A stretch of 64,000 nucleotides of DNA from Pseudacidovorax sp. (GTDB lineage Bacteria > Pseudomonadota > Gammaproteobacteria > Burkholderiales > Burkholderiaceae_C). The first letter of the stretch is position 1; each line of letters starts with the position of its first letter. The stretch covers positions 62,001-126,000 of the forward strand of contig NZ_JAGOPN010000010.1 in the NCBI RefSeq assembly GCF_017991995.1. The letters are read 5' to 3'. This document shows, one piece after another, positions 23,452-47,940 of the stretch. The notes beneath the pieces were generated by a model. The model was not told the DNA's origin, searched no databases, and saw only the letters and a program-made list of their open reading frames with translations. A program made the position numbers and the translations under genes.

Positions 23452-23453
23452 GG

Positions 23454-31131: not shown

Positions 31132-31395
31132 GAGGCCACCTCCCGAGGCACGTGATTTCCAATGCGCGTGCCACCACGACACGCAGGCACGAGTCTGAAA
31201 TCAGGCGCCCGCGAGGCACACCCGTCGGGGCGTGGCCTGGCGTACGCCGGCGGGCGCGTCGCTGTTTTGCTTCTTCTCGTGGAGGCGGTGCGCGTGGGAG
31301 CGCGGCCAAGTCAGACGGCGGTCAGCATGCCAGCCGACGCGCATCGCGTCCAAGGCTTCTGACGCGAGCCGACATCGCGCCACGGCGATGTGCTG

Positions 31396-32289
31396 TTACG
31401 GCTGATGCAAGGTTCGGGCGTACGCGAGGAATCGCTGGAGCACCTCCGGCAGGGCGGGGTGCCGGTGTTTGTGCAGCACGTAGGTCTTGATGCGTATGTC
31501 TTCAGCCAACGGCACGACGACGACATCGGCGCGACGCAGAGTCGTCATGTGGCCGGCATCGGCCACGCCGACACCCAGGCCCGCAGCCACGCGGATGACG
31601 TAGCCCACCAGGGTCCGGGCTTCGGCTGCGATAACGGGCCTAGCAGCGTAGTGTCGACGCACAGCGTCCATCTGCTGACGCAGCCCTGGCAGACGGTCGA
31701 GGCGGCAGGCGATCATGGGGAAGGCCAGGAGTTCGGAGATCTGCACGACCTCGCGGGTGGCCAGTTCGTGGTCGGGTGGAACCAACGCCACCAAGGGGTA
31801 GTCCCAGACCATCTCCTGGGCAATGGCGTCATCTTCCGCAATGCCGAAGGAGAAGCCGACATCGACCTCCTCGCGCCGCAGCGCGGCCAACAGCTCGGAC
31901 GCAGGCATCTCGGTGATCTCCAGCGGGATGTCGGGCGCCAGTGCGCGCCAGCCGAGAAAGCAATCGGAGAGCCTGGGCTGGGCCATGCCGTCCGCCACGC
32001 CGACGCGAAGCGGTGCGCGGTAGCGGGCGTCGGTTTCGCAGACCACCCGTTTGATGCGCTCGAACCGCGTAAAGAGCATGCGGGCATGCTCGAGCAGCTT
32101 AGATCCGGCGGGGGTCAGTTTCAGCCTGCGTGGCGCGCGGACGAGGAGCGTGACACCCAGTTGCTCCTCCAGATCGCGCACGGTGCGCGACAGAGGCGTC
32201 TGGTCGACGTGCACGCGTTCGGCAGCACGGCGGAAATTCAGCTCCTCCGCGACCGCGATGAAGTAGCGCAGATGTCTTAACTCAATCAT
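31396..32289 (-). CDS. traR: LysR-type regulator (TraR of Tn4371-family elements)
   Basis: A 297-residue LTTR: HTH residues about 3-60 (LRHLRYFIAVAEELNFRRAA; RTVRDLEEQLGVTLLVR) and a periplasmic-binding-like effector domain. It is the next gene upstream of traG, in the same direction, where Tn4371-type elements carry their LysR gene traR, so it probably controls transfer. Alternatively it could regulate the tph cargo on its other side. The 264-nt gap to traG shows no gene. Confidence 0.75.
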   Translation of the reverse strand: MIELRHLRYFIAVAEELNFRRAAERVHVDQTPLSRTVRDLEEQLGVTLLVRAPRRLKLTPAGSKLLEHARMLFTRFERIKRVVCETDARYRAPLRVGVADGMAQPRLSDCFLGWRALAPDIPLEITEMPASELLAALRREEVDVGFSFGIAEDDAIAQEMVWDYPLVALVPPDHELATREVVQISELLAFPMIACRLDRLPGLRQQMDAVRRHYAARPVIAAEARTLVGYVIRVAAGLGVGVADAGHMTTLRRADVVVVPLAEDIRIKTYVLHKHRHPALPEVLQRFLAYARTLHQP

Positions 32290-32459
32290 CGATGCCGCGA
32301 GTCGAATGGACTAGTACGCCAGGAATCGATTCACATATTGCAAAAAGGGCTCAAGCCTTCTTGAAGGAATTCGCTGTATGCCATTTGTCCTCGTAGCCGA
32401 ATGAGACCGAAGACACCATGAAACGCTCCTGCGGCATCTCTCTATGGAGCCGGCCACCT
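32290..32459. other. Junction between transfer module and tph operon
   Basis: 170 bp without an intact gene. On the minus strand a short reading frame ends VSSVSFGYEDKWHTANSFKKA, which may be the 3' remnant of a lost gene. This is the seam between the Tn4371-like backbone and the catabolic cargo. Confidence 0.35.
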
Positions 32460-33476
32460 TCAGGCCGGCACGGTGCCCGCCGCAGGCCCGCTGACGAACA
32501 CGTCGGCATGGAAGCGCGCGGCCGGCAGGCCCAGCGCCTGCACCGCCGCCTCGCGCACCGACTGCACCATCGCCGGCGAGCCGCAGCAGTACAGCTCGTG
32601 CCCCGACAGGTCGGGGCAGTGCGCGCGTAGCGCCGCATCGACCCGGCCGGCGAAGGCGCCCTCGCGCGTCTCTCCGCTGAGCGCCTCGATGAAGCGGAAG
32701 TCCTGCGGCCACTGGCGCTGCCACTTCGCGACCGCCGGGCGCAGGTAGATGCCCTCGGCACGGCGGGCGCCCCAGATCAGCGTGATCGGCCGCGCCACGC
32801 GCCGGCGCGCCATGTCGTCCAGGATGGATTTGGCTGGCGCGAAGCCGGTGCCACCCACGACGAAGACGATCGGCCGGTCCGCGTCCGCCTCCAGCGTGAC
32901 GGCGCCGAAGGGCAGCTCGACCTCGATCGCGTCGCCCGGCGCCAGGCTGGGCACGCGCGCGCTGAAGGCGCCGTCGGCCACGTGGCGCACGTGCAGGGTC
33001 AGCGTGTCGTTCTCGTGCGGCGGGTTCGCCATCGAATAGCAGCGGGTGCTGCCGTCGGGCAGCGCGAGTTGCAGGTACTGGCCGGCCTGGAAGCGGGCCC
33101 GCTGCCCGGCCGGCAGGCGCAGCTGCAACACCGAGACGTCGGGCGCCGCCAGCTGGTTGCGGAACACCTTCGCCGTGAAGCGCTTGCGGGCGGCCGGGTC
33201 GACGCGGTGCCAGGCGGCGGGGCGGATGCGCAGGTCGCTGCGCGGCGCGCACATGCACAAGAGCACTTGATCGGGCCCGCAGCTCTCGTTGCGCAGCGGG
33301 CCGCCCAGGTTGGCGACCTCGCCCCCGGCCACCGCGCCGGCGCAGTTGCCGCACACGCCCTTGCGGCAGGAGTAGGGCAGCTCGATGCCGGCGCGCAGCG
33401 CGGCGTCGAGCACGCTCTGCGCCGGGCCGCAGTCGAAAGCGGCGTCGCTGCCCTCGATGGTGATGCGATGGTTCAT
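32460..33476 (-). CDS. tphA1: Terephthalate 1,2-dioxygenase reductase component
   Basis: A 338-residue NAD(P)H oxidoreductase that feeds electrons to TphA2A3. The N-terminal plant-type 2Fe-2S domain has Cys37, Cys42, Cys45 and a fourth Cys near 74 ([11 protein letters not shown]); then FAD-binding (RCYSMANPP) and NAD-binding ([22 protein letters not shown]) domains. This ferredoxin-first order and length fit TphA1. The start overlaps the tphB stop (ATGA). Last gene of the tph operon. Confidence 0.92.
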
Positions 33477-34444
33477 GCCGTTCCTTCCTCCACGCCGGCG
33501 CTCGTCAGCAGCGCGATGGTGCGCAGCACAGCGCCGGGGTCCGCGATGCCGAGGCCGGCGATGTCCATCGCGCTGCCGTGGCCGACGCTGGACAGCAGCG
33601 CCTGCGCGCCGATGGACAGCGCGCTGGCCGCGTTCGGCGCCAGCAGCTTGACGGGGATGTGGCCCTGGTCGTGCAGCATCGCGACGTACAGGTCGTGCCG
33701 CCGCTGCGCCAGCAGCAGGTCGGCGCCCAGCGGGCCGTCCACGCGCAGGCCCTCGGCGCGCAGCGCCTGCACGGCCGGCTCGACGTGCTGCGCGTCCTCG
33801 GGGCCGAACAGCCCGCCTTCCGAGGCGTGCGGGTTGATGCCGAAGACGCCGATGCGCGGATCGGCGACGCCCAGCCGCGCGCAGGCCCGCACGCCTGCGC
33901 GCGCCGCCGCCGCGACCAGCGCGGGCCGCAGGCGGCCCAGCGCATGCGCCACGCTCTCGTGCAGCGTGGCGTGCACGATGCGCAGGCCGCCGCCGACGAG
34001 CATCAGGAACACGCTGTCCTCCGGCTGGCCGCACACGCGCGCGACCAGCGAGGGGTAGCCGCTGAAGGCGATGCCGGCCTGATGGATCGCCGTCTCGTGG
34101 TGCGGGCAGGCGACCACGGCGTCGGCCTCGCCGCGCCGGCAGGCCTCGATGGCGGCGCTGGCTGAGGCGACGGCCGAGGCGCCCGCCGCCGGGTCGATGC
34201 GGCCGGGCCGGGCTGCCTGCGCGGGCAGCGTGCCGGCGTCCACCGCGGGCTGCCCGCGCAGTAGCGCCTCCAGCCCGAGCTGCGATGCCATGCGCTCCAG
34301 CACGGCCGCGGGGCCGTACAGCGTGATGCGCTCGCGTGCATCGGACGGCAGCGCCGCCAGGGCCTTGAGGGCGATCTCCGGCCCGATGCCGTTGGGGTCG
34401 CCCACGGCCAGCGCCAGCCGGGGCGGCGCGACGGTCGCAGCCAT
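33473..34444 (-). CDS. tphB: 1,2-dihydroxy-3,5-cyclohexadiene-1,4-dicarboxylate dehydrogenase (PdxA-like)
   Basis: A 323-residue PdxA-family dehydrogenase that oxidises and decarboxylates the cis-dihydrodiol made from terephthalate to protocatechuate. The [17 protein letters not shown] start, HETAIHQAG and HDQGHIPVK motifs hold the divalent-metal and substrate residues. By sequence alone it could be read as 4-hydroxythreonine-4-phosphate dehydrogenase; the operon makes TphB the right name. Start 34444 is 5 nt after tphA3. Confidence 0.9.
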
Positions 34445-34449
34445 GGCGT

Positions 34450-34914
34450 TCACAGCGGCAGGGCCAGCAGCGTGTCCGTCACCGTGCTGTCGCACACCGC
34501 GACGCGCGAGCGCAGGCGCAGCCGGCCATCCTGCCGCACCACGCGATCGCGGTAGACGCCGCTGGCGAACAGGTGGGTCTCTCCGGTCGCCATGATGCGC
34601 GCCACCATGAAGGGCGTGCGAGCCTCGGCGCCCGTGTCGTCCTGCGCGCCCAGCACCGGGATGCCCAGCAGATGGCGGTAGCGCTGGCGCTCGTAGATGT
34701 TGGCCTCGCGCAGCGCGGCGATGCGGTCCTCCAGCATGGCGCGCGAATCGGCGTAGACGATGCCGGCCGGCAGGCCCTCGCGCTCATTCTCCGTGTGCGT
34801 GATGCGGTAGTGGCAGTCGTCGGTGAAGAAATCGGCCCACCGCTCCAGCGCATCGCTGTCGATGGTTTCGGCATAGGCCGCGTTGAAGGCGCACAGCGCC
34901 AGAAGGTCGATCAT
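34450..34914 (-). CDS. tphA3: Terephthalate 1,2-dioxygenase small (beta) subunit
   Basis: A 154-residue SnoaL-like beta subunit ([29 protein letters not shown]) matching TphA3 in length and place. It assembles with TphA2 into alpha3beta3. Start 34914 lies 28 nt after tphA2. Confidence 0.92.
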
Positions 34915-34942
34915 GGTGTGCTCTCTCGATGGGCAGGCGCGC

Positions 34943-36187
34943 TCAGGCGCCCATGTGCTGCCGGTAGGCCTTCCAGAAGCCGCGCACCGAGGCCTCGGTG
35001 GCGCGGCCCTCGCTCGACGCGGTGCCGTCGCCGCCCATCTCCACCACCGCCTCCAGCGTGCCCGCGCCGGCGATGCCGCGCTGCACGAAGCCGCCGACGG
35101 CGCCGTCCTCCATCGAGATGAAGCCGGCCGGCCCGATCAGGTTGGACTGCTTGAGCCGCACGCGGCGCTGCTCGGGCGTGTCGTCGGCGTAGCCGAGGTA
35201 GGTCCAGTTCAGCTCGGTGCGCTCCACGCCCCTGGGCAGCACCTGGCGCACCGCCAGGCAGTTTTGGATCTGCTGCAGCACGAAGCCGGGGAAGACCGAG
35301 AGGATCTGCAGCGTCACGCCGTCCCCGTATTCCTGGAAGCCGGCCAGCAGGCTAGGGTCCTTCAGGCGGTAGTTCGCATCGTCCGAGCGCAGGCCCTGGT
35401 CGCGGTACGAGGCGTCCTTCTCCGCCTGCGCGTCGATCATGGAGTAGCTCACATGGTTGCCGCCGCTCTCGTCGACGATGACGCCGCCCTTTTGCGACAG
35501 GCGATTGAGCTCGAAGGTGGTGAAGAACAGGTGCAGCAGGCTCGCGTGGTAGCTGTCGCGCACGTTCTCCACGTACAGCTTCCAGTTGTTGGGCAGCGCC
35601 TGCGTGAAGCGCCCGATCACCTCCACCGGCTTGTGCAGCACGCGCTCGATGCGTTCGCAGATCTCCTCGCCCAGGTACTCCTCGATGCCGGGCACCTCGT
35701 CGCTGAAGCTGCCGAAAACCAGCCCGCAGAAGGCCGCCACGCGCAGCTTGCGCGGGCCGTGCGCCTCCTTGCAGAAGCCGGGCGGCATGCCGCCCTGGCC
35801 CTTGACGCCTTTCTCGAAGGCCACGCCGGTCAGGTCGCCCTGCCGGTTGTAGCTCCAGGCGTGGTAGACGCACTGGAAGTTCTCGGCGCGGCCCGACTTC
35901 TCCAGCGCGATCAGCGCGCCGCGGTGGGCGCAGCGGTTCTCGAAGGCGTAGACCTCGCCGTCCGCGTCGCGCACCACCACCACCGGCGTCTCGCCGACGA
36001 AGGTGGTGCGGTAGCTGCCGGCCTCGGGCAGCTCGGCCTCCAGGCACAGGTAGTTCCAGGTCTCGCCCTGGAAGATGCGCGCCTGCTCCTCGGCGGCGAG
36101 CTGCGCGTCGCGGTAGACGCCGTAGGGGATGCGCGTGAGCCCGGGGCCGGACCAGCGGACGGGTTGAAGGGTGGACGTGTCTTGCAT
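34943..36187 (-). CDS. tphA2: Terephthalate 1,2-dioxygenase large (alpha) subunit
   Basis: A 414-residue Rieske oxygenase that inserts O2 at carbons 1 and 2 of terephthalate. Rieske ligands are Cys86, His88, Cys106 and His109 (CAHRG; CVYHAW); mononuclear iron ligands lie in [11 protein letters not shown] (Asp211, His214, His219). Length equals known TphA2 proteins to within a residue or two. It follows tphC by 7 nt. The gene order tphC-A2-A3-B-A1 is that of Comamonas sp. E6 and Ideonella. Confidence 0.93.
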
Positions 36188-36194
36188 GGGTTGC

Positions 36195-37163
36195 TCAGTC
36201 GAGGCGGACGTTGGCGCTGCGGATGACCCGGTCCCACTTGGCGGACTCGGCGCGGATGAACTGGCCGGTGCGGGCCGGGTCCCAGCCGCGCGGCTCGGCG
36301 CCCTGCTCGGCGAACTTCTGCCGCACCTCGGGCTGGGTCAGTGCGCCGGCAAAGCTCTTCTGGAGCGCGGCCACCTTGGCCGCGGGGGTGCCCGGCGGCG
36401 CCACCACCGCGAACCAGGTCACGGCGTTCATCGACGGCAGCCCCTGCTCGGCGAAGGTGGGCACCTCGGGCAGTGCTGCGGAGCGCTGCTCGTCGGCCAC
36501 GCCCAGGATGCGCAGCTTGCCCGCCTGGTGGAAGGGCAGCGACGAGCTGATGTTGTCGAAGAACACGTCGATCTGCCCGCCCACCAGGTCCACCAGCGCC
36601 GGCGCCGTGCCCTTGTAGGGGACGTGGACCATCTCCGTGCCCGTGAGCTGCATGAACAGGCTGGCCGTCAGGTGCGAGGTGGTGCCGTTGCCCTGCGAGC
36701 CGTAGGTCACCTTGCCCGGGTTGGCCTTGGCGTAGGCGATGAACTCCTGCACGGTCTTCACCGGCAGCCGCGGGTTGACCACCAGCACGTTGGGCACCGT
36801 CGCCAGCACCGTGACCGGCTCCCACTTCGACGGGTCGAAGGCCATCTTCCGGTACAGGTGGTGGTTGATGGCGATCGGCCCGGGCGGCGAGGCCAGCAGG
36901 GTGTTGCCGTCGGGTTCGGCGCGGAATACCGCCTCGGCGCCGATGTTGCCGCCGGCGCCGGTGCGGTTGTCGATCAGCACGCCGGCGGGGAACTGCGCGC
37001 GCAGCTTCTCGGCCACCACGCGCGGCAGGATGTCGGCCGTGCCGCCGGCGGGGTAGGGCACGATGATCTTGAGGGCTTGCGGGGTCTGTGCCGTGGCGCT
37101 GCCGAGCAGGCAGGCCGCAGTCAGGCAGGCGGCGCCGAGGCGCCGCGCGAGGGCGGTTGTCAT
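36195..37163 (-). CDS. tphC: Terephthalate-binding TTT receptor
   Basis: A 322-residue periplasmic Bug-family receptor of the tripartite tricarboxylate transporter type. Signal peptide ([16 protein letters not shown]), the family hallmark [20 protein letters not shown] and later [18 protein letters not shown] are visible. As first gene of the tph operon it matches TphC, which captures terephthalate for TctAB-type membrane partners encoded elsewhere. Start 37163 has GGAG upstream. Confidence 0.9.
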
Positions 37164-37248
37164 CCTGTTGTGTCTCCGTGTCTGACGTTCATCGGGGGTG
37201 ATCCAGTGTCCGGGCCGCATGCCTTTCGCCACAAGCCGGATGTGCGGC

Positions 37249-37260
37249 ATGCGCAAAAAT
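37249..37260. promoter_or_regulatory. Candidate IclR (TphR) site in the tphC/tphR gap
   Basis: ATGCGCAAAAAT lies in the 129-nt gap between tphC and the tphR-like pseudogene; ATGCGCAAATAT is found 85 nt before the MHETase start. GGCATGCG also occurs twice in this gap. A shared motif before both terephthalate operon and MHETase gene would fit control by one IclR regulator. Inference from two sites only. Confidence 0.35.
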
Positions 37261-37282
37261 GGACGCCCCGGCATGCGAAGGA

Positions 37283-37520
37283 TCAAGATGCGATGGCAGA
37301 CAAGAACTTCGTGAGCTCGCTCGATAAGGGCCTGCAGGTGCTGGGCTGCTTCGGCCGGCAGCACGCGCGGCTCACCGTCTCGGAGGCGGCGCGCCTGACC
37401 GGCAGCACGCCGGCCTCGGCGCGGCGCTCGCTGCTCACGCTGCAGGCGCTCGGCTACCTCGACAGCGACGGCAAGCGCTTCTGGATGCTGCCCAAGGCGC
37501 TGCTGATCGCGCACGCCTAT
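37283..37520 (+). repeat. 238-bp direct repeat, copy 1 (5' part of tphR-type genes)
   Basis: Nearly identical (about 94% by eye) to 40160-40397. Both copies start about 10 nt before an IclR start codon and end at the codon for Tyr in HAY. Beyond the right edge, the identity between the two genes falls to roughly 70%. The repeats enclose the MHETase gene, so recombination between them would delete it. Confidence 0.85.
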
Positions 37521-38048
37521 CAGTTCCCGCCCGATGCCGCAGCTTGCGCAGCCGCTGCTGGTCGCTCTCTCCGAGCGCACCCGTGAGTCGGCCAGCCTGG
37601 GCATGCTTCTGGGCGACGATGTGGTGATCGTCGCTCGCGCAATTGCCCGGCGCAGCCTTTCGACGGGGCTGGCCATCGGATCGCGGCTTCCGAGCTATTG
37701 CTCGGCGCTCGGCGGGGTGTTGCTCGCCGCGTTCGAGCCCCTGGAGGCACGCAGACGTGTCGACCAGATGCAGCGCGCTGCACTGACACCGCGCACCCTC
37801 TGGCGTAGCAACGACGTCGTGGCCGAGGTGGCCCGCTGCCGCGAGCAGGGCTGGTCGGAGAGCGATGAGGAACTGGAACTCGGCGTGCGGTCGATGGCCA
37901 TCCCGGTGTTCGACCGTGCGGGCGATACCGTCGGCGCCATGAGCATCGCGGTCCAGGCCGACCGTATGACGATGGCGGATTCCGTTCGACCATGCTGCCG
38001 GCGCTGCGTCGTGCGCGCGATGCGCTGGCGACCCGCTTGCCGGCGGAT
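37293..38048 (+). pseudogene. Chimeric, frameshifted IclR-type regulator (tphR-like)
   Basis: The first 76 codons match the intact regulator at 40170 almost exactly. Compared with it, 2 nt are missing at about 37520-37545, where the frame moves to LAQPLLVALSERTRE, and 1 nt is missing at about 37979, after MTMA, where FRSTMLPAL continues in a third frame. All IclR domain parts (winged HTH, effector domain) are present but split over three frames, so no full product is made; a short HTH-only peptide of about 100 residues could still be translated and might bind DNA. It starts 129 nt from tphC, the normal place of tphR. Confidence 0.85.
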
Positions 38049-38154
38049 TGTGCGCACCCGGGCCGGGCGCAGTGGAGCCGCTGCGGCGGGCATCTCGGTA
38101 CTTCGATGCAAAGCGTCGTAGGGGAAACCCTGGAACGACCAAGTTTCTTTCGCG

Positions 38155-38166
38155 ATGCGCAAATAT
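38155..38166. promoter_or_regulatory. Candidate IclR site upstream of the MHETase gene
   Basis: ATGCGCAAATAT, 85 nt before the MHETase start codon, matches the motif at 37249-37260 in 11 of 12 positions. It is placed where a regulator of MHETase transcription could act. No clear sigma70 promoter boxes are seen next to it. Confidence 0.35.
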
Positions 38167-38250
38167 CCTGACGCTACATCAAGCCTTCGGTCACACCATC
38201 GCGCCCGCGGCTGCAAATCAATGCCGCGAACCAGTCGAAGGAGACATAAG

Positions 38251-40068
38251 ATGCAGACAACAGTCATCACGATGCTGCTGGCGTCGGTGGCCCTAGCCGC
38301 GTGCGTTGGCGGCGGATCCACGCCGCTGCCGCTGCCGCTGCCGCAGCAGCAGCCGCCGCAGCAGGAGCCTCCGCCGCCCCCGGTGCCCTTGGCTTCGCGC
38401 GCCGCATGCGAGGCTCTGAAGGACGGAAATGGCGACATGGTGTGGCCAAATGCCGCGACGGTCGTGGAAGTCGCTGCCTGGCGTGACGCCGCGCCCGCCA
38501 CCGCATCTGCGGCGGCGCTGCCCGAACACTGCGAGGTGTCCGGCACCATCGCGAAGCGCACCGGGATCGACGGCTATCCCTACGAAATCAAATTCCGCCT
38601 CCGGATGCCCGCAGAATGGAACGGTCGTTTCTTCATGGAAGGCGGCGGCGGAACCAACGGCTCGCTGTCCGCGGCTACCGGCAGCATTGGTGGGGGACAG
38701 ATCGCAAGCGCGCTGTCTCGCAATTTCGCCACCATCGCAACGGATGGAGGTCACGACAACGCAGTGAACGACAATCCCGACGCGCTCGGCACCGTTGCCT
38801 TCGGATTGGATCCGCAGGCCCGTCTCGACATGGGCTACAACTCGTACGATCAGGTCACGCAGGCAGGCAAGGCCGCGGTGGCCAGGTTCTACGGACGCGC
38901 TGCCGACAAGTCCTATTTCATCGGCTGTTCGGAGGGCGGCCGCGAGGGCATGATGCTCTCGCAGCGCTTCCCTTCCCACTACGACGGCATCGTTGCCGGT
39001 GCACCAGGCTACCAGTTGCCGAAGGCCGGGATCAGCGGTGCGTGGACCACACAGTCCCTTGCGCCCGCCGCTGTCGGCTTGGATGCACAAGGCGTGCCGC
39101 TTATCAATAAGTCTTTCTCTGACGCCGACCTGCACCTTCTTTCACAGGCAATCCTGGGCACATGTGACGCCCTCGACGGCCTTGCGGATGGCATCGTTGA
39201 CAATTACCGGGCATGCCAGGCAGCCTTTGACCCCGCCACGGCAGCCAATCCTGCAAACGGCCAGGCGCTCCAGTGCGTTGGCGCCAAGACTGCGGATTGC
39301 CTGAGCCCCGTCCAGGTCACTGCGATCAAGCGCGCGATGGCGGGGCCCGTGAATTCGGCGGGAACGCCGTTGTACAACAGATGGGCTTGGGACGCTGGCA
39401 TGAGCGGACTGAGTGGCACGACCTATAACCAGGGGTGGCGCTCGTGGTGGCTCGGTAGCTTCAACAGCAGTGCCAACAACGCCCAGCGCGTGAGCGGCTT
39501 CTCGGCGCGCTCCTGGCTGGTCGATTTCGCCACACCGCCCGAACCGATGCCCTTGACGCAGGTTGCCGCGCGGATGATGAAATTCGATTTCGACATCGAT
39601 CCGTTGAAGATTTGGGCGACCAGCGGACAGTTCACCCAATCCAGCATGGACTGGCACGGTGCAACTTCTACTGACCTTGCTGCCTTCCGCGATCGCGGCG
39701 GCAAGATGATCCTGTACCACGGCATGTCCGACGCCGCGTTCTCAGCCCTGGACACGGCCGACTATTACGAGAGACTTGGCGCAGCGATGCCAGGTGCTGC
39801 TGGATTCGCGCGCCTTTTTCTGGTGCCGGGTATGAATCATTGCAGCGGCGGTCCCGGGACCGACCGGTTCGACATGCTGACGCCCTTGGTCGCCTGGGTC
39901 GAGCGCGGCGAGGCGCCGGATCAGATCTCCGCCTGGTCGGGCACGCCAGGGTACTTCGGGGTGGCGGCACGCACGCGGCCACTTTGCCCGTATCCCCAAA
40001 TCGCCCGCTACAAGGGTAGTGGAGACATCAACACCGAAGCGAACTTCGCCTGCGCGGCGCCGCCCTGA
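38251..40068 (+). CDS. MHETase: MHETase: mono(2-hydroxyethyl) terephthalate hydrolase (tannase family lipoprotein)
   Basis: A 605-residue exported esterase that splits MHET into terephthalate and ethylene glycol. Signal with lipobox LAAC (Cys18), then a Pro/Gln-rich linker and the tannase alpha/beta-hydrolase with a lid. Relative to the Ideonella sakaiensis enzyme as I remember it (603 residues), all positions shift by +2: nucleophile Ser227 in GCSEGG, Glu228, Asp494, His530; substrate residues Trp399, Arg413, Phe417, Ser418, Phe497; calcium ligands Asp306, Asp309, Leu311, Asp313, Ile315; and all ten disulfide Cys. Differences noted: one extra Pro-Leu unit, and Gly133 where the reference has Ser131. 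GGAGA lies 6 nt before the ATG. GC looks lower than in the tph genes, suggesting separate origin. Confidence 0.95.
   Translation: MQTTVITMLLASVALAACVGGGSTPLPLPLPQQQPPQQEPPPPPVPLASRAACEALKDGNGDMVWPNAATVVEVAAWRDAAPATASAAALPEHCEVSGTIAKRTGIDGYPYEIKFRLRMPAEWNGRFFMEGGGGTNGSLSAATGSIGGGQIASALSRNFATIATDGGHDNAVNDNPDALGTVAFGLDPQARLDMGYNSYDQVTQAGKAAVARFYGRAADKSYFIGCSEGGREGMMLSQRFPSHYDGIVAGAPGYQLPKAGISGAWTTQSLAPAAVGLDAQGVPLINKSFSDADLHLLSQAILGTCDALDGLADGIVDNYRACQAAFDPATAANPANGQALQCVGAKTADCLSPVQVTAIKRAMAGPVNSAGTPLYNRWAWDAGMSGLSGTTYNQGWRSWWLGSFNSSANNAQRVSGFSARSWLVDFATPPEPMPLTQVAARMMKFDFDIDPLKIWATSGQFTQSSMDWHGATSTDLAAFRDRGGKMILYHGMSDAAFSALDTADYYERLGAAMPGAAGFARLFLVPGMNHCSGGPGTDRFDMLTPLVAWVERGEAPDQISAWSGTPGYFGVAARTRPLCPYPQIARYKGSGDINTEANFACAAPP
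38323..38340 (+). repeat. CCGCTG hexanucleotide repeat in the MHETase linker
   Basis: Three tandem CCGCTG units code for Pro-Leu in the linker after the lipobox. Slippage here explains the two-residue length difference from the 603-residue reference enzyme. Confidence 0.8.
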
Positions 40069-40073
40069 AAGGG

Positions 40074-40088
40074 GCCACGTAGCGTGGC
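40074..40088 (+). terminator. GC hairpin after MHETase stop (weak terminator candidate)
   Basis: GCCACG-TAG-CGTGGC forms a perfect 6-bp stem starting 6 nt after the stop codon. There is no T tract, so it may be an mRNA-stabilising hairpin and not a terminator. Confidence 0.35.
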
Positions 40089-40159
40089 GCCTTGCACGAT
40101 TGCTCCGGCAAGGTGAAGTTTTCATGCTGCGTACTTGACGATCGGGTCCTGGAAGCAGG

Positions 40160-40397
40160 TCAAGACGCGATGACAGACAAAAACTTCGTGACTTCGCTCG
40201 ACAAGGGTCTGCAGGTGCTGAGCTGCTTCGGCCGGCAGCACGCGCGACTGACAGTCTCGGAGGCGGCGCGCCTGACCGGCAGCACGCCGGCCTCGGCGCG
40301 GCGCTCGCTGCTCACGCTGCAGGCTCTTGGCTACCTCGACAGCGACGGCAAGCGCTTCTGGATGCTGCCCAAGGCGCTGCTGATCGCGCACGCCTAC
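40160..40397 (+). repeat. 238-bp direct repeat, copy 2 (5' part of intact tphR)
   Basis: Partner of 37283-37520; same orientation, 2.88 kb apart. It contains the start and winged-helix coding part of the intact IclR gene. Confidence 0.85.
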
Positions 40398-40931
40398 CTC
40401 GCCTCGCGCGCGACGCCCACGCTGGCGCAGCCGCTGCTGGATGCGCTGTCGGAGCGCACCCGCGAGTCGGCCTCGCTGGGCAAGCTGCTGGACGACGACG
40501 CGATCATCATCGCTCGCTCCACGGCGCGGCGCAGCCTGAGCATCGGGCTGGGCATCGGCTCGCGCCTGCCGGCCTACTGCTCGGCCATCGGCCGCGTGCT
40601 GCTGGCCAGCCTGCCGCCGGGCGAGGCCGAGCGCCGCGTGCGCGCCATGCCGCGCCAGCCGCTGACGCCGCGCACGGTGTACGAGGTGCGCCCCGTGCTG
40701 GAGCTGATCGCGCGCTGCCGCGAGCAGGGCTTCGCCGGCAGCGACGGCGAGCTGGAACTGGGCGTGCGCTCCATGGCCGTGCCGGTGCACGACCGCAGCG
40801 GCTCGCTGGTGGGTGCCATGAGCATCGCGGTGCGCGCCGAGCGCATGAGCTTCGCCGAGTTCCGCGAGGCCTTCCTGGCCGCCCTGCGCAAGGCCGGCAC
40901 TACGTTGGGCGAGCGGCTTTATCCCGAGTGA
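40170..40931 (+). CDS. tphR: IclR-family regulator, intact TphR-type
   Basis: A 253-residue IclR protein. Winged HTH in residues about 8-70 (TSLDKGLQVLSCFGRQHARL; SARRSLLTLQALGYL) and an effector-binding domain (SIGLGIGSRLPAYCSAIGRV; ELELGVRSMAVPV). In Comamonas, TphR activates the tph operon with terephthalate as effector. Here it stands downstream of MHETase, in the same direction, while the copy in the usual place next to tphC is broken; it is the likely functional controller of both. Confidence 0.85.
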   Translation: MTDKNFVTSLDKGLQVLSCFGRQHARLTVSEAARLTGSTPASARRSLLTLQALGYLDSDGKRFWMLPKALLIAHAYLASRATPTLAQPLLDALSERTRESASLGKLLDDDAIIIARSTARRSLSIGLGIGSRLPAYCSAIGRVLLASLPPGEAERRVRAMPRQPLTPRTVYEVRPVLELIARCREQGFAGSDGELELGVRSMAVPVHDRSGSLVGAMSIAVRAERMSFAEFREAFLAALRKAGTTLGERLYPE

Positions 40932-41288
40932 AGGGGAACGGCCTGCTACACCCTGTGCACTACGCCCGCGCTCAACTCAGAGACACTGGCTGTACGCGAA
41001 GACTACCGGGGTTGGACTGCTTCAAGCTCCTTCAGAAACCACGAAAATCCAACCCCGTCCAGCCCTCAAACTGACATGGGATGATGTCGAGGACCACGTG
41101 CGGAGTCTGGTCAGTCTCCTTGGGTTCATCCTTCAGGCACGTCCTTGGGCAGCAACGACTGCGTCATGGCAACCCACTCTTCTGCTAAGACAAACCCCGG
41201 CGTCGCCGACAGTGCGTCGCCTCGATTTCCAGCCAGGGCTGTACGCGAATCCCTCGGCGCCATCTTGCGTCCAGTCGCACTCTCGGCG
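40932..41288. other. 357-bp spacer after tphR with an inverted repeat
   Basis: No convincing gene. GGGGTTGGA (41008-41016) and TCCAACCCC (41048-41056) form a perfect 9-bp inverted repeat with a 31-nt loop, which may act as a bidirectional transcription stop between the convergent tphR and esterase genes, or be a scar. Possible right border of the tph/MHETase block. Confidence 0.4.
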
Positions 41289-42149
41289 TCAAGGCTTGTC
41301 GGGCCTCTCGAGGAAGGCGAAAACGCCAAGCATGCTTCTGTCGATGACCGTGCGGTGATCCGCGTCCTGAATCTCCTCGTAGCGAAAGATCATCTTTCGC
41401 TCTTCCATGGCATCAATCCACGTCCTAGTCATGTCGACGGGAACCGCTTGATCGACCACGCCCTGCGTGATCATCACAGGCACGGTGATCTTGGAGAGAA
41501 CTTCCTGCATCCGGGGGACCATTCGTCGGGTCGCCGGCGCGATGGCCGCAACGGCGTTCCACTGCTTGGGATATTTGGATGCGAGGTAGAGCGCGCCGGC
41601 GCCTCCCATGGAATGACCGACTAGGAACGTGCGCGCCGGGTCCGTCCGGAACTCCTGCTTCGCCAGGGCCAGCACGTTCATGACGTCCTGCTCACTCAAC
41701 GCCCTCAGGTTCGGGGGATCGTGGGCCGCTGCAGGATCGGGGGTGCGGCCAAGGCCTGCGCGGGGGCTGTACTCGCCGGGGATGCCATACCAGCCCCGCG
41801 GGTTGTATCCCATGGGCGCAACCACGACATAGCCGCCCTTCTCGGCCAGGTCGAGCAGCGCGCCGCGCATGAGGGTGTTGTGGTTCCCGTTCAGTCCATG
41901 CAGCGCGATGATCAAAGGCGCCGGCTTGTCTTTCCTGACCTTGCTGGAAACGAACACCGCGTAGGGCAAGTCCTCCCCGGTGGGACCGAAACGGTAGGTC
42001 CGCTGCCCGACCCGCGGATCGGGGGGCAAAGGCTGCGGCCGCGGCGATGCAGGCGGGGCGACGGGCTGAGCCGCCACGACCCCGGACAACGCCGACAAGC
42101 CAACGCCGATCGCCCATGCCCGAAGCATGTTTCTTCTGTCGAGTTCCAT
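41289..42149 (-). CDS. Exported alpha/beta hydrolase (PHB-depolymerase/LpqC-like esterase) with Tat-type signal
   Basis: A 286-residue hydrolase. The N-terminus LDRRNMLRAWAIGVG has twin Arg, followed by a hydrophobic stretch and an Ala-x-Ala-type cleavage site, suggesting Tat export. The nucleophile elbow is VGHSMGGAG, the oxyanion region LIIALHGLNGN, with a C-terminal Asp/His (DQAVP; DADHRT). Acts outside the cytoplasm on an ester, perhaps of an aromatic acid. It lacks PETase features (WSMGG, the GYTARQ loop). Last gene of the six-gene minus-strand operon. Confidence 0.78.
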   Translation of the reverse strand: MELDRRNMLRAWAIGVGLSALSGVVAAQPVAPPASPRPQPLPPDPRVGQRTYRFGPTGEDLPYAVFVSSKVRKDKPAPLIIALHGLNGNHNTLMRGALLDLAEKGGYVVVAPMGYNPRGWYGIPGEYSPRAGLGRTPDPAAAHDPPNLRALSEQDVMNVLALAKQEFRTDPARTFLVGHSMGGAGALYLASKYPKQWNAVAAIAPATRRMVPRMQEVLSKITVPVMITQGVVDQAVPVDMTRTWIDAMEERKMIFRYEEIQDADHRTVIDRSMLGVFAFLERPDKP

Positions 42150-42190
42150 AGCCTTTCCTTTCCACGCCGAAATGCCGGCGGCTTCTCCGC

Positions 42191-43153
42191 CTATTCCCGC
42201 CCGGACCTTGCGTGCAGCGCGAACGCCATGAGGCGCAGGTCGCGCCAGTGAGACCTTTCCCGCAGTTGCGCCTGGGGCAGCAGCTTCCGGCGCTGTGCCT
42301 CGACCTCGGCGATCAATTCGGCATCCCAGCTGTCCGAATGGTCCCTCGACGCGGCGATGCGCTGGTAGAGCGGCCCCAATCGCCGGGCATAGTCGGCGAC
42401 GCCGCCCACCGCATTGAGGTCGATGGTCTCGAACGGTCCCATGAAGGACCAGCGCCATCCCAACCCGTCGCGTACGGTCTTGTCGATGTCCTCCACCGAG
42501 GCGATCCCATCCTTGACCAGTGCCCAGGCCTCCCTGAGCAGCACGGCCTGGAGGCGATTGAGGACGAAGCCATCGATCTCGCGTCTCACCGTGATCGGAC
42601 TCTGGTCGCATGCCAGCATCAGCTCGCGGGCGAAATTCAGAGCATCCGCACCGGTATCGGGCGAGGGAACCAGCTCGACCAGCGGGATCAACGACGGCGG
42701 ATTGACCGGGTGCACCACGAGGACGCGGTCGCTGATGCGCAGCCCAGATGCAAACGCGGAGGCCGGGATTCCCGAGGTAGAACTACCGATGATCCGCCTG
42801 CCGTCGTCCAACGGCTCGAGTTGCTCAAGCAAAGCGCGCTTCAGATCCGCCTTCTCCAGAATTGACTCCTGGACGTAGACGGCATTGCGCACCGCCTCCT
42901 CCAGCGAGGCCACAACCCGGACTCTTCCGGCGACGACGGACGGGGGTTCGTCGACCAGCCCCTGGTCGGACAGCGCGTCCAACTGCAGCCGTATCCGGCC
43001 TGGCGCTGCCTCCAGGACGGCGGCATCGGCGTCATGGATGTTGACAGCGAATCCGGCCCGGGCGAAAACCACGGCCCACGCGCAACCGACCAGGCCCACA
43101 CCGATGCAGGCAACGGTTCCGAAGTTCTTGGGATCTATCATGGGCATATTCAT
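42191..43153 (-). CDS. 3-hydroxyacyl-CoA/L-gulonate 3-dehydrogenase (lambda-crystallin) family protein
   Basis: A 320-residue NAD-dependent dehydrogenase. Rossmann motif CIGVGLVGCAWAVVFARAG, GSSTSGIPAS, HPVNPPSLIPLVEL, and the C-terminal GWRWSFMGPFETIDLN typical of CRYL1-like proteins. The ATG at 43153 is taken as the start; ATGs at 43147 and 43141 are equally possible and none has a good ribosome-binding site. Probably oxidises a 3-hydroxy acid. Confidence 0.8.
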   Translation of the reverse strand: MNMPMIDPKNFGTVACIGVGLVGCAWAVVFARAGFAVNIHDADAAVLEAAPGRIRLQLDALSDQGLVDEPPSVVAGRVRVVASLEEAVRNAVYVQESILEKADLKRALLEQLEPLDDGRRIIGSSTSGIPASAFASGLRISDRVLVVHPVNPPSLIPLVELVPSPDTGADALNFARELMLACDQSPITVRREIDGFVLNRLQAVLLREAWALVKDGIASVEDIDKTVRDGLGWRWSFMGPFETIDLNAVGGVADYARRLGPLYQRIAASRDHSDSWDAELIAEVEAQRRKLLPQAQLRERSHWRDLRLMAFALHARSGRE

Positions 43154-43190
43154 CACAAGGTTCAAAGAATTTCGCGCTCCCTGCCCCAGT

Positions 43191-43697
43191 TCATGCGTAG
43201 CCCTGAATTGGGGCGCCTGCACGCAGTCCGAGCTTCGAGATGAGGACCGGCGCCCCGCCCCAGCGCTGTCGGGCAAGCCAAGTGGCAAGCCCTTGGTCCA
43301 TCACGCGCGTGTGGCCTGGAAACCAGTCGGCCAGCGCAATCGCGAAGGCACGAACCACATCGGCGCGCCCCTGGCCAAACGCAATCTTGACTTCGCGCAG
43401 GCTTTCCAACACGGCAGCATGCTCTTCGACGTGGCAGCGTGCCGAGTCGTACCGCGAGACGCGCATCGTCTCTTCCTCCTCAGCAAAGTGCGAGCGCACA
43501 TGGCGCTCGAAAGCGGCCAGGGCGGCATCCAGCGCCCCAGTGTCCGACGACAGCAGCGCATCGACGCACCGAACGAACTCGCGATGCATCAAGTCCATGC
43601 TCTCTTCTCCGAGCACGAACCTTTCATCCCAGGCGAGCGAACTCGGGATTGGTCGTTGAACAGCCAGCGCCGCAACCGAAAGGGCTTCCTTGCTCAC
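43191..43697 (-). CDS. Hemerythrin-like domain protein
   Basis: A 168-residue protein with the bacteriohemerythrin pattern of iron ligands (LMHREFVRCVDALL; FERHVRSHFAEEEETMR; CHVEEHAAVLESL), a non-haem di-iron O2-binding four-helix bundle. The 5' end overlaps the TTT receptor stop by 4 nt, so it belongs to the operon. A role in supplying or sensing O2 for the Rieske oxygenases is inferred; the family is also used in signalling. Confidence 0.82.
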   Translation of the reverse strand: MSKEALSVAALAVQRPIPSSLAWDERFVLGEESMDLMHREFVRCVDALLSSDTGALDAALAAFERHVRSHFAEEEETMRVSRYDSARCHVEEHAAVLESLREVKIAFGQGRADVVRAFAIALADWFPGHTRVMDQGLATWLARQRWGGAPVLISKLGLRAGAPIQGYA

Positions 43698-44758
43698 GGG
43701 TTGGTCCCAAGGCCTGCCTCCCGCATCACGCCGCTGAGCTTCTTCACATCACCTTCAAGCCACTTGCGCGCTTCGACCGAGCCGACGAACCTGGGCTGCA
43801 CCTCCAGATCGTTGAGACTCTTCATGATGGCCGGATCGTTCATCGCATCCCGGAAGGCGGCTTCGAGGCGCTGCAATACGGGTGCGGGAGTTCCTGCCGG
43901 CGCGGAGATCGTCACCAGCTGTTCGTTTCCGTCGAGCTCCGGGTAACCCTGCTCGCCCGTCGTTCCAGCGCTGGGCAAGAGCGGCAGCCGCGTGGGCCGC
44001 TGCACGGCGATCACCCGCAGCCCTGCACCATCCATCTGCTTGACCAGCGAGCTGTAGGGCAAGACGCAGGCGTCGACATCGCCGGCCTTGATCGCGGTCA
44101 GCGCCGGTGCCACTCCGTTGTAGGGAACATGCGTGATGTTCAGCTTCTGGCCGGGATGGTTCTTCTGGAAGGCGAACCTGAACATCTCCAGTTGAAGGTG
44201 GTTGATGCCGTTGGCGCCCGTGGAGCAGATGCTCAGTCCTCCAGGCCTGCTGTTCGCCAATGCCACGAGTTCGGGCAATGTCTTGGCCGGGGTCTTGTCG
44301 CTGACGGCGAACAGGGAGGTGTAGATGCCCAGGCCCGCGATGGGCGCGTAGTCCTTCAGGCTGAACTCGTGGTTACGAACGAGCAGATGGACGAAGCCGA
44401 ACGCCGAGCCGGAGGCGATGAACAGCGTGTAGCCGTCCGGCTTGGCCGTGGCTGCGGCGCGCGCTCCGACGGCGCTGCCGGCACCCGGGCGGTTGACGAT
44501 CACCACCGGCTGCCCCAGGAGCTCATTGACCTTCTTGCCCAGCACGCGGGCGGTCGCATCGAGGCTGCCACCGGCGGCGAAGGGAACGATGATGCTGATC
44601 GGTCCCTGAGGAAACGCCGGTTCGGCCGCCGCGGCGCGCTGCGCAGCCGCAGCCAGAAGCGCTGATGCCAGCAGCGCGGGTAGGACCTGGCTGCCGAACT
44701 TCGGCAGTTGGAGGGCGAAGCGGGCGCGGCGCGCCAGCCCGGCGATGGTCGGGATCAT
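43694..44758 (-). CDS. TTT-family (Bug) periplasmic receptor
   Basis: A 354-residue receptor with an Ala-rich signal region, the hallmark SIIVPFAAGGSLDATARVLG, ATAKPDGYTLFIAS and HVPYNGVAPALTAIKAGDVD. Start 44758 follows AAGGAGA. It is the second receptor of this operon. Ligand unknown, expected to be a carboxylate such as an aromatic acid. Confidence 0.88.
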   Translation of the reverse strand: MIPTIAGLARRARFALQLPKFGSQVLPALLASALLAAAAQRAAAAEPAFPQGPISIIVPFAAGGSLDATARVLGKKVNELLGQPVVIVNRPGAGSAVGARAAATAKPDGYTLFIASGSAFGFVHLLVRNHEFSLKDYAPIAGLGIYTSLFAVSDKTPAKTLPELVALANSRPGGLSICSTGANGINHLQLEMFRFAFQKNHPGQKLNITHVPYNGVAPALTAIKAGDVDACVLPYSSLVKQMDGAGLRVIAVQRPTRLPLLPSAGTTGEQGYPELDGNEQLVTISAPAGTPAPVLQRLEAAFRDAMNDPAIMKSLNDLEVQPRFVGSVEARKWLEGDVKKLSGVMREAGLGTNP

Positions 44759-44802
44759 ACGGTGTCTCCTTGACGGACGTTGGTCTGGGATCGGACAGGC
44801 CC

Positions 44803-46086
44803 TTACGCCTGAACGGCAGGGGCTTCCATGGGGCGGGCCGTGCTCATGAGCGCCTCGGCCTTGTCGGGATCGAGATCCTCCGGCAGGACGGTCTGCGTGG
44901 CCCGAACGCGATAGAGATGCGGCATGAGCGAGGCCTCCGGCCGCGTGCCGCGGTCTTCGCATGCGAGGGCCGCATCGATCAGCGTCCTGCGCATGGCGAC
45001 CACGGCGCGGTCGCTGCTGCCGAGGTTCTCACGCGTGCGATCCACGATCGCACCTGCCGTCTCGCACACCATCGCGTCCTGGGCGCGCACCCCTGCGATG
45101 CCCGTGAACGACACGGTCTTCTGCAACTGGCGATCGATCAGGTAGTTGTTGTCCAGGCGTTCCGTCGGGCGCGTGGTGCCTGGCACGACCTTGCGGTGCG
45201 CGACGTCGCCGTTGCACCATGCCGCCAGTTCCTTATCGCCCAGCCTGCGGTCCGGGCGAAACGTCACGCAGATCACCCAGCAGCGCTCGTCCGTCATGGG
45301 CACCCACATGCGCACCAGATGGGCGTCGTCCGGATGCGGGGGGATCATGGTGTAGAACGGCATCAGGAACTGGTTCAGGCGCCAGTAACGCTGCCCCTCG
45401 GCGGTCCTGCGTCCGTTGCAGGCCATGAAGCCGGCCGGCGTCGGCAGGATCTTCCAGACCGGTGCCTTGTCGTCGTGGAAGTATTGCCCGGTCAACGCTT
45501 GGGCATCACCTTCGGTCTTGTTGACGAGGCTGTGCAGGAAGCCCACGTGCGCGCTGTCCAGTTCGCCCTCCATCGCCTGGGCATAGTTGCAGTCCTGCTC
45601 CCAACGCGAGGCATAGATGTGATCGTCCGGCAGGCCCAGCCACTCGAAGTCGGGCAGCGGCGGCGCGTCGCCCTCGCCCATGTACACCCACAGCACGCCG
45701 CCGGCCAAGCGCGCTGGGTAGGCCGTCGCCCGGACTTTCGAGCACATCGGACTGCCTGCGGGCTCGGTGGGCATGTCGAGGCACTTGCCCTCCACCGAGA
45801 ACTTCCAGCCGTGATAGACGCAGCGTACGCCCCCCGCCTCGTTGCGGCCGAAGAAGAGGCTGGCGCCTCGGTGCGGGCAATGCTCGTCCAGCACGCCGAT
45901 GCGGCCCTCGGTGTCGCGGAACACCACCAGCGACTCGCCCAGAAGGGCGAGGCGAACCGGCGGTTCGTCCGCGGCGGGGATCTCGCGCTCGAGCATGGCC
46001 GGCGTCCAGAAGGAGCGCATCAGCTTGCCCATCGGTGTCCCCTGGCCGGTGCGGGTCAGGACGTCATTGTTTTCTTTGCTCAGCAT
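44803..46086 (-). CDS. Rieske oxygenase, phthalate dioxygenase family (alpha only)
   Basis: A 427-residue oxygenase of the PDO/phenoxybenzoate-dioxygenase type. Rieske ligands Cys70, His72, Cys89 and His92 (CPHRG; CVYHGW); mononuclear iron ligands in GELDSAHVGFLH (Asp177, His180, His185). Enzymes of this group hydroxylate phthalates or O-demethylate aryl ethers with a separate PDR-type reductase. No reductase is in this operon; the one at 49167 is the likely partner. Confidence 0.87.
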   Translation of the reverse strand: MLSKENNDVLTRTGQGTPMGKLMRSFWTPAMLEREIPAADEPPVRLALLGESLVVFRDTEGRIGVLDEHCPHRGASLFFGRNEAGGVRCVYHGWKFSVEGKCLDMPTEPAGSPMCSKVRATAYPARLAGGVLWVYMGEGDAPPLPDFEWLGLPDDHIYASRWEQDCNYAQAMEGELDSAHVGFLHSLVNKTEGDAQALTGQYFHDDKAPVWKILPTPAGFMACNGRRTAEGQRYWRLNQFLMPFYTMIPPHPDDAHLVRMWVPMTDERCWVICVTFRPDRRLGDKELAAWCNGDVAHRKVVPGTTRPTERLDNNYLIDRQLQKTVSFTGIAGVRAQDAMVCETAGAIVDRTRENLGSSDRAVVAMRRTLIDAALACEDRGTRPEASLMPHLYRVRATQTVLPEDLDPDKAEALMSTARPMEAPAVQA

Positions 46087-46152
46087 GGCGGTATGAAGTA
46101 GCTATTGGGTTTCGCGAAGATGGATCTGAAGAAGCCGGACGCACCACAGACA

Positions 46153-47118
46153 TCAGTCGGCCTTGGCCCCAGACGCCTGGATGACAGGGGCCCACTTCAA
46201 GATGTCGGCACGGATGCGCTGGTCGTATTCCTGGGGGCTGGAGCCGACGGGATCCAATCCCATTTCGAGCAGCTTGTGCGCAAATTCCGGCGTGTGCGCC
46301 GCGCGTGCGATGTCCGCACTGATCTTCTGCACGATGGCCGCCGGCGTGCCCGCCGGCGCAATCACGCCGACGCTGCTCTGGGCCGACACGCCAGGAACAG
46401 TCTCGGCGACCACCGGGATGTCGGGCACGCTGGCCGGGCGCGAGGGACTGAACAGGGCGATGGGCTTGAGCTTCCCAGCCTTGATGAGGCCGGCGCTGGC
46501 GTAGTAGGTGTCCATCAGCAGCGGCACCTGCCCGCCCATCACGTCCTGTTGTGCCGGCGCGCCCCCGCGGTACGGCACGTGGACGATGTTCACGCCCGCC
46601 TTGACCTTCAGAAGCTCCATCACCAGGTGGTGCGCGGTGCCGCTTCCCGGGCTCGCATAGCTCAGACGCCCGGGCTGCCGCCGGGCGAGCTCCAGCAACT
46701 CCGCGAGATTGCCCGCCGGCAGCGACGGGTTGGCATCCAGGATGATGTGCTGCACACCCACCTCCGACACCGGCTGGAGATCCTTCAGCGTGTCGTAGGG
46801 CAGGTTCGACCTCAGCGTCGGATTGATCGCATGGGACGACACGGCGATGCCTAGCGTGTAGCCATCCGGCGGGGCCTTGGCGACCACGTTGGTCGCCAGC
46901 ACGGCGCCGGCACCCGGCCGGTTGTCGACGACCACCGGCTGGCCCCATACCTCGGAAAGCTTTTGCGCCAACAGCCGCCCCTGCGCATCGGTCGAGCCAC
47001 CCGGCGGGAACGGGATGACGAGCCGGACCGGCCGGCTGGGCCAGTCGTCCTGCGCGTGGACCGGCGAGGTCATGGCCAGCGGAAGCAGCGGCAGCGCCAA
47101 GCGCATCCTGTTTTTCAT
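46153..47118 (-). CDS. TTT-family (Bug) periplasmic receptor
   Basis: A 321-residue receptor with signal peptide ending at SPVHA, then RLVIPFPPGGSTDAQGRLLA and HVPYRGGAPAQQDVMGGQ. It is the first gene of the six-gene minus-strand operon and lies 81 nt from the MarR operator at 47199. Ligand unknown. Confidence 0.88.
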   Translation of the reverse strand: MKNRMRLALPLLPLAMTSPVHAQDDWPSRPVRLVIPFPPGGSTDAQGRLLAQKLSEVWGQPVVVDNRPGAGAVLATNVVAKAPPDGYTLGIAVSSHAINPTLRSNLPYDTLKDLQPVSEVGVQHIILDANPSLPAGNLAELLELARRQPGRLSYASPGSGTAHHLVMELLKVKAGVNIVHVPYRGGAPAQQDVMGGQVPLLMDTYYASAGLIKAGKLKPIALFSPSRPASVPDIPVVAETVPGVSAQSSVGVIAPAGTPAAIVQKISADIARAAHTPEFAHKLLEMGLDPVGSSPQEYDQRIRADILKWAPVIQASGAKAD

Positions 47119-47198
47119 CGTGTGTCTCCTTGGCCCGTGGCGGCCAGTGCGTTCTCATCTGCACGTACATCCAGACCCATGGATCGACGATGTAACGA

Positions 47199-47211
47199 TT
47201 GCATTATGCAA
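47199..47211. promoter_or_regulatory. MarR operator, copy 1 (TTGCAT-T-ATGCAA)
   Basis: A perfect 6+1+6 palindrome in the 245-nt gap between the TTT receptor gene and marR. Read toward the receptor gene it gives ACTTGCATAATGCAAT, identical over 16 nt to the copy at 47878-47893 read toward the oxygenase gene. Flanking a MarR gene on both sides, the two sites are very likely its binding sites. Confidence 0.7.
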
Positions 47212-47363
47212 GTATTTATTTCGCCTCACAAGGGCCACCGACAAAGGGAGACCTCCTTCGGCTAGGCGATTTCCCTAGGATCGAAAGGTTGCAAATCAAG
47301 GAGAAGTGGGCATGACGGCTATGCTCGGGACGCAGCAGCCCCTGCCGCAGACCTCTCGCATCC

Positions 47364-47843: not shown

Positions 47844-47869
47844 ACCGGCCGGCAGCGTCTTGCGACGGG

Positions 47870-47898
47870 TTGATATTACTTGCATAATGCAATTAATA
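47870..47898 (+). promoter_or_regulatory. Promoter with MarR operator (copy 2) in its spacer
   Basis: TTGATA (47870-47875), a 17-bp spacer, and TTAATA (47893-47898) form a sigma70 promoter for the oxygenase/tetronate operon. The palindrome TTGCAT-A-ATGCAA (47880-47892) fills the spacer, so bound regulator would exclude RNA polymerase. Confidence 0.68.
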
Positions 47899-47940
47899 GG
47901 GCTCACGTTCGAGCCTTGCCAACTCCCGCGAGACAACCCG

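Follow-up and report, generated by a model that had tools for sequence, protein, structure and literature searches.

A near-identical counterpart of the Ideonella sakaiensis MHETase on a putative tRNA-Lys island in a different host species

The MHETase of Ideonella (Piscinibacter) sakaiensis 201-F6 (PDB 6qz2, 6qg9), the second enzyme in that species' digestion of PET, is the closest described relative of the enzyme considered here, and we take its activity on mono(2-hydroxyethyl) terephthalate (MHET) to be EC 3.1.1.102. Two homologues that are much farther from it, those of Comamonas thiooxydans (81% identity; GenBank entry later removed) and Hydrogenophaga sp. PML113 (73%), are reported to be active on MHET and to be accompanied by terephthalate genes, and neither organism is reported to have a putative PETase gene (PMC7568301). 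Residue 131 lines the substrate pocket of MHETase; it is Gly in 91% of 6,671 members of the tannase/feruloyl-esterase family and in both homologues, and the C. thiooxydans protein, whose pocket is otherwise identical, shows a turnover number of 9.5 per second with MHET (PMC7568301). In an engineered S131G mutant of MHETase, Km is raised eightfold and efficiency falls to about 3% of that of the wild type, and the Discussion of the same paper proposes that Ser131 evolved for MHET (PMC7568301). Six MHETase homologues of more than 60% were chosen from NCBI in January 2025, and an earlier database entry near the protein described below may exist, for example the 'uncultured bacterium' row of that report (PMC11902034). 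PMC13040137 describes phthalate clusters as often surrounded by transposases or integrases, and mobility of tph operons as such is therefore to be expected. In the literature covered (MHETase with mobile elements, horizontal transfer, or Piscinibacter, with preprints and many subscription papers outside its scope), no title or abstract opening placed MHETase on an integrative conjugation-type island.

Here, we describe a MHETase gene within a 64,000-nucleotide stretch of DNA, called the window, which lies on contig C31 of a 6.24 Mb genome. The gene occupies 38251..40068 on the forward strand (ATG 38251, stop 40068; 605 aa, no internal stops), is preceded by the purine-rich stretch AAGGAGACATAAG, and has a third-position GC of 0.75, lower than that of most genes called in the window. 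Its product matches PF07519 (tannase family) with 412 bits and aligns end to end with PDB 6qz2 (E = 0, far beyond chance), with a two-residue gap in the proline-rich linker; the window protein has the two extra residues, and its numbering is shifted by +2 because of them. Compared with the 201-F6 gene (contig NZ_BBYR01000104.1 of P. sakaiensis, 11,068 bases; locus tag ISF6_0224 in the first-pass annotation), the protein is 99.2% identical (598/603 aligned residues), and the 603 aligned codons, 99.3% identical as DNA, hold seven synonymous and five non-synonymous changes (dS 0.016). The first-pass annotation, which had placed the gene at these positions and claimed near-identity to the I. sakaiensis enzyme with a handful of substitutions, was correct on each count, and the identity lies above the 95% that it had set as its own threshold. 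From 201-F6 to the window and in I. sakaiensis numbering, the substitutions are T6I, A19V, A97T, S131G and M433L (window residues 6, 19, 99, 133 and 435), the first two falling in the signal region. The further claim of the annotation, that every functional position is kept, stands in part. With the functional-site numbers that we assume for the I. sakaiensis enzyme, the triad (S225, D492, H528), the oxyanion residues (G132 and E226), the substrate-binding lid residues (W397, R411, F415), the calcium-loop residues (304, 307, 309, 311, 313) and the ten cysteines of the five disulfide pairs are all conserved; the exception is residue 131 in the lining of the substrate pocket. The gene would encode a MHETase orthologue, a serine hydrolase of the tannase family that has a lid, binds calcium and cleaves MHET to terephthalate, and the protein is counted as such despite having no Ser131, given that Gly homologues are reported to be active (PMC7568301).

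A scan of 84,980 species (one genome each; a close-relative search that may leave out the window's own genome) returned 12 loci, of which only that of 201-F6 is near-identical, the next being 76% and 73% identical. In a tree of 29 proteins, comprising the window protein, the 12 scan loci, seven paralogues from its own genome and nine congener loci picked from a longer list, the window enzyme and that of 201-F6 form one pair with support 100/99, and the window enzyme has a branch length of zero; the lid columns of the alignment are unreliable in distant members. Among 15 genomes of the genus searched, the window's own included, none of the other 14 holds a MHETase homologue above 47% identity, and no match was found in viral contigs. 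A plasmid home for the gene was rejected, all 165 matching plasmid records being below 60% identity. The 76%-identical homologue lies on a 3.3-kb contig of a Caldilineaceae (Chloroflexota) MAG and pairs in the tree with a Hydrogenophaga homologue; its assignment to that phylum could stem from faulty binning or from a further transfer.

At residue 131 the window enzyme has Gly in place of the Ser of 201-F6. Gly is found in 26 of the 29 aligned proteins, with Ser confined to 201-F6 and two distant tannases, and this distribution suggests that Gly is the older form, that Ser131 arose late in the lineage of 201-F6, and that the window enzyme probably binds MHET less tightly than does the 201-F6 enzyme. 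Barring the four other substitutions and the linker, it would represent a natural counterpart of the S131G mutant, and the remaining substitutions could offset the effect of Gly131. At one of these, residue 433, the Leu of the window enzyme is shared with the Hydrogenophaga MAG and Caldilineaceae MAG homologues, and 201-F6 has Met. The proposal that Ser131 serves MHET can in this way be tested directly on a natural pair of enzymes, set apart by the five substitutions and the short gap in the linker.

A query with the I. sakaiensis PETase gave no match in the host genome at E 0.001 or better; the identical search in 201-F6 gave a match at 100%. An alpha/beta-hydrolase esterase with an N-terminus that we read as signal-like is encoded at 41289..42155 on the reverse strand (start putative). 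Its last 52 codons are protein-identical to the end of the 201-F6 contig, and it scores 26.3 bits against the Pfam PETase model, below the cut-off of 28. As no PETase was recognised, we speculate that the host cell probably draws on MHET, or on other monoesters of terephthalate, released by different organisms or different esterases. A different reading grants the horizontal move and holds that the Gly131 enzyme serves another aromatic monoester, for example one derived from other polyesters, from plasticisers or from plants. This we consider unlikely, though worth weighing: the missing PETase match, the prevalence of Gly131 among tannases and feruloyl esterases, the poor performance of the S131G mutant on MHET (PMC7568301), and the presence on the island of another tannase and other aromatic genes would all accord with it, but the MHETase gene adjoins a terephthalate operon, F415 and the other compared pocket residues are the same as in MHETase, and the Gly131 enzyme of C. 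thiooxydans does turn over MHET (PMC7568301).

The operon in question lies on the reverse strand. It comprises tphC (36195..37160; PF03401), encoding a TctC-type binding protein presumed to be for terephthalate; tphA2 (34943..36187), encoding the large, Rieske-type oxygenase subunit; tphA3 (34450..34914), encoding the small oxygenase subunit; tphB (33473..34420; PF04166), encoding a dihydrodiol dehydrogenase of the PdxA family; and tphA1 (32460..33461, scanned as the frame 32460-34034), encoding the terephthalate dioxygenase reductase with Fer2, FAD and NAD domains. A LysR regulator gene follows at 31396..32289 on the same strand; it and the two oxygenase subunits were assigned by family match. 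A reductase frame at 32311-33354 was rejected, matching no Pfam family. In view of its 99.2% identity to the 201-F6 enzyme, MHETase would convert MHET to terephthalate; as judged from family matches, the adjacent TphC would bind the terephthalate, and TphA1A2A3 and TphB would carry it on to protocatechuate. The MHETase gene is flanked by two IclR-type regulator genes on the forward strand, a frameshifted copy 1 (37290..37970) and an intact copy 2 (40170..40931; family match). Copy 1 carries a frame-breaking 2-bp gap relative to copy 2, the gap is the same in the window and in 201-F6, and the two first copies are 99.5% identical. The tph operon of Variovorax paradoxus VAI-C is 80% identical over 5.5 kb, its tphC adjoins one regulator, and no MHETase is present in the 29.6 kb shown. 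The shared gap and the MHETase-less V. paradoxus operon argue that MHETase and the second regulator copy probably entered a tph operon in a single event that predates the split between the two clusters.

Further catabolic cargo extends over 42191..54917 and encodes 3HCDH and TctC proteins, two Rieske oxygenases and a Fer2 reductase, as well as epimerase, sugar-acid kinase-like, aldolase and TIM barrel families. A second tannase-family esterase (55007..56758, reverse strand; PF07519), 37% identical to MHETase, is located on the same island with a TctC-type binding protein gene and a LysR gene adjacent. A Hydrogenophaga MAG contig encodes a MHETase 75% identical to the window enzyme, and its positions 12108-13300 and 178-652 are 68-70% identical in DNA to island genes at 53.5-54.7 kb and to the TctC gene at about 57 kb; the neighbourhood of these cargo genes may in part predate the island.

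By alignment and sliding identity, the likeness to 201-F6 reaches well beyond the MHETase gene. Window positions 30427..41447 are 96.2% identical to bases 20-11045 of the 201-F6 MHETase contig over 11,035 aligned columns, and both ends of the match coincide with the ends of that contig. Synonymous divergence is uneven along the segment: dS is lowest in MHETase and rises through tphC (0.036), tphA2 (0.065), IclR copy 2 (0.080), tphB (0.101), tphA1 (0.135) and residues 1-252 of traG (0.144) to tphA3 (0.283) and LysR (0.329), compared with 0.40 for rpoB. As dS spans 0.016-0.33 and the LysR and tphA3 genes approach rpoB, the shared segment is a mosaic rather than the product of a single clean, recent transfer, with the MHETase-tphC core its most recently shared part. 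The 201-F6 contig ends inside traG, and its TraG has a counterpart to residues 1-252 only, at the contig end, and no further TraG match was found in the 201-F6 assembly. 201-F6 appears to hold a cut-down relative of the same cargo.

The whole cluster is the cargo of an integrated conjugation-type island seated in a tRNA-Lys gene. The 3' 46 bp (17564-17609) of the tRNA-Lys (CTT) gene at 17534..17609 on the forward strand (ARAGORN) recur as an exact direct repeat at C31:146780-146825, which is window coordinate 84780-84825, past the end of the window. Measured from the first base beyond the tRNA through the second repeat, the island spans C31:79610-146825, or 67,216 bases (67.2 kb). Its first gene encodes an AlpA-type, excisionase-like regulator (17633..18016, reverse strand; PF05930), followed by a helix-turn-helix regulator gene (18347..18796, forward strand; PF13560), and just inside its right end an integrase with Arm-DNA-bind_3 and phage-integrase domains is encoded on the reverse strand (C31:145273-146694). 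End repeats, an adjoining integrase and absence at this site in the five relatives examined, as expected of an integrative element in a tRNA gene, were all found. A response regulator and a histidine kinase form a two-component system at 61544..64000 on the forward strand (genes to 63645); past the window lie genes for a P-type ATPase, RND efflux, IS21-like functions and the integrase. Beside the two-component system, at C31:126144-135367, the P-type ATPase, RND pump, HlyD and outer-membrane efflux genes are probably metal-efflux cargo of the island.

Between the regulators and the catabolic genes, on the reverse strand, lies a conjugation module. It begins with a DUF2274 gene (18827..19036), which also ends two other traG/trb modules, and continues with trbI (19048..20604; PF03743; open frame, start undefined), trbG (20352..21362; PF03524), trbF with a VirB8 domain (21359..22060; PF04335; start putative), trbL (22075..23637; PF04610; open frame, start undefined), a probable trbJ (23817..24599; no Pfam families), trbE for the conjugation ATPase (24596..27043; NF010447, 1444 bits, cut-off 1020), VirB3-like trbD (27062..27331; PF05101), trbC for the pilin (27328..27651; PF04956), trbB for an ATPase (27648..29192; PF00437; open frame, true start probably near 28660), a CopG-like regulator gene assigned by position, with no Pfam match (28661..29092), and traG for the coupling protein (29089..31182; NF010450, 1143 bits, cut-off 674).

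Elements with such traG/trb genes go, as we understand it, under the Tn4371 label. A Tn4371-family ICE is defined by a traG/trb module, a relaxase, traF, parA/repA, a Tn4371-type integrase and a short target site. The island has the traG and trbB-C-D-E-J-L-F-G-I module, trbJ by position only, and in the subset of island ORFs scanned we recognised neither a relaxase nor traF, parA or repA; the island may therefore be unable to move by itself at present. Its tph and MHETase cargo further sets it apart from Tn4371-like elements, as may its tRNA-Lys site with the 46-bp repeat and its Arm-DNA-bind_3 integrase. Of 1,258 plasmid records matched by the trb/traG DNA, 114 have at least 80% query coverage, and identity is 78.0% in plasmid paaa of Pandoraea sp. 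XJJ-1 and 77.1% in Variovorax boronicumulans EBFNA2. The order DUF2274-trbI-G-F-L-J-E-D-C-B-CopG-traG is the same in V. boronicumulans, where all of these genes are listed and a DUF3363 protein, presumably of a relaxase type, is encoded near traG. The order is also the same in Pandoraea, whose incomplete gene table does not list trbB. Beyond traG the Pandoraea plasmid has TrbK, LysR, oxidoreductase, outer-membrane protein and bph genes, and the tph/MHETase cluster of the window sits on the traG side that these biphenyl genes take.

The island might instead be only a resting place, with MHETase carried into an older island on a smaller transposon or through recombination and never moved by the trb module. 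The mosaic dS values would fit such an origin, as would a 201-F6 cluster with a TraG fragment and no trb DNA match, and the want of a recognised relaxase in the ORFs scanned. We nevertheless think it rather doubtful, as a single alignment to 201-F6 extends from the catabolic genes into traG, so that the traG-cargo junction is shared, and in plasmid paaa LysR and catabolic genes likewise come after traG. That MHETase spread recently by horizontal transfer on the island, and that the 201-F6 lineage acquired S131 afterwards, is in our judgement very probably the correct account. We give even odds to a more specific proposal, in which the I. sakaiensis MHETase came from a relative of this tRNA-Lys island carrying tph and a Gly131 MHETase, and Ser131 then arose and sharpened MHET binding where a PETase was present. 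If so, the window enzyme would stand as a living near-ancestor, set apart from that of 201-F6 by five substitutions and two linker residues.

The joined flanks of the island were sought in the 15 genomes of the genus, the other 14 serving as the comparison set. The left flank through the tRNA and terminator was found in one piece in 5/14 (G005, G006, G012, G013 and G014), the other nine having parts only. The island is absent after the tRNA-Lys in all five of these congeners, whose regions were fetched; in three of the five, including G013 and G005, there are island-like pieces of at most 677 bases at 65-71% identity, which look like paralogues. The right flank follows the tRNA after about 0.9 kb in G014 (C31:150803 on) and about 13 kb in G006; the 20 kb retrieved from G012 does not show it. 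In G013 and G005 the tRNA is followed by about 18 kb of other DNA, and similarity returns, at 94% identity, from C31:147043. This suggests an integration hotspot, and several inserts may have made use of the tRNA-Lys. In none of the five congeners examined did we see the two flanks cleanly joined with nothing in between, and the exact pre-insertion site is therefore one that we infer. These flanks also bear on whether the contig is a contaminant or a chimeric assembly, an idea that would account for how far the segment exceeds the rest of the compared genome in likeness to 201-F6. The left flank on the same contig matches the five relatives at 86-93%, and the right flank matches four of the five at 77-94%, with none seen in G012. 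In addition, the island is bounded by exact attachment repeats of 46 bp, one of which adjoins an integrase gene, and the genome is given as 100% complete with 0.63% contamination. We reject contamination on the strength of the syntenic flanks and regard it as highly improbable.

The host is a species other than I. sakaiensis. Over the 1382 aligned codons of its longest open frame, rpoB shares 85.1% of its bases and 85.4% of its residues with the 201-F6 gene. Identity is 81-86% along rpoB-rpoC and 64-74% in other stretches of at least 700 bases from sampled regions of both genomes, a small sample that may include paralogues. No 16S match for such a comparison was found in the host assembly. In the 201-F6 assembly, window 16001-30426 is matched by the tRNA sequence and short weak pieces only, window 41448-44500 by pieces of at most 88 bases at 72-77%, and window 44000-56000, the tRNA sequence apart, has no close counterpart (best 71% over about 770 bases). 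That the genome is merely another I. sakaiensis strain with the gene by descent, as the 96.2% identity over 11 kb taken alone might suggest, is almost inconceivable, being ruled out by the rpoB and rpoB-rpoC divergence and the missing flanking regions (16001-30426 and 44000-56000), with a PETase, moreover, in 201-F6 and not in the host genome. The first-pass annotation had argued that the gene would be evidence of recent spread if the genome were not I. sakaiensis; set against 99.2% identity of the MHETase protein, this housekeeping divergence supports that claim. As the cargo of an integrated tRNA-Lys island, the gene would have reached its host species recently by horizontal transfer. To the earlier claim are now added the island, a host species with no recognised PETase, and the Gly131 state. 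A near-identical, island-borne MHETase in another species with no PETase match would represent a concrete route for the spread of PET-product catabolism.

In 201-F6 itself, the ends of the PETase contig C74, of C62 and of the MHETase contig C104 share 21-23 bases, and a 16-mer from these ends occurs in only those three places in the assembly. A shared insertion-sequence end linking the PETase and MHETase contigs was considered and set aside: other 201-F6 contig ends share 23-26 bases (C18-C2, C18-C7 and C11-C12), and the sharing is therefore possibly an assembly effect.
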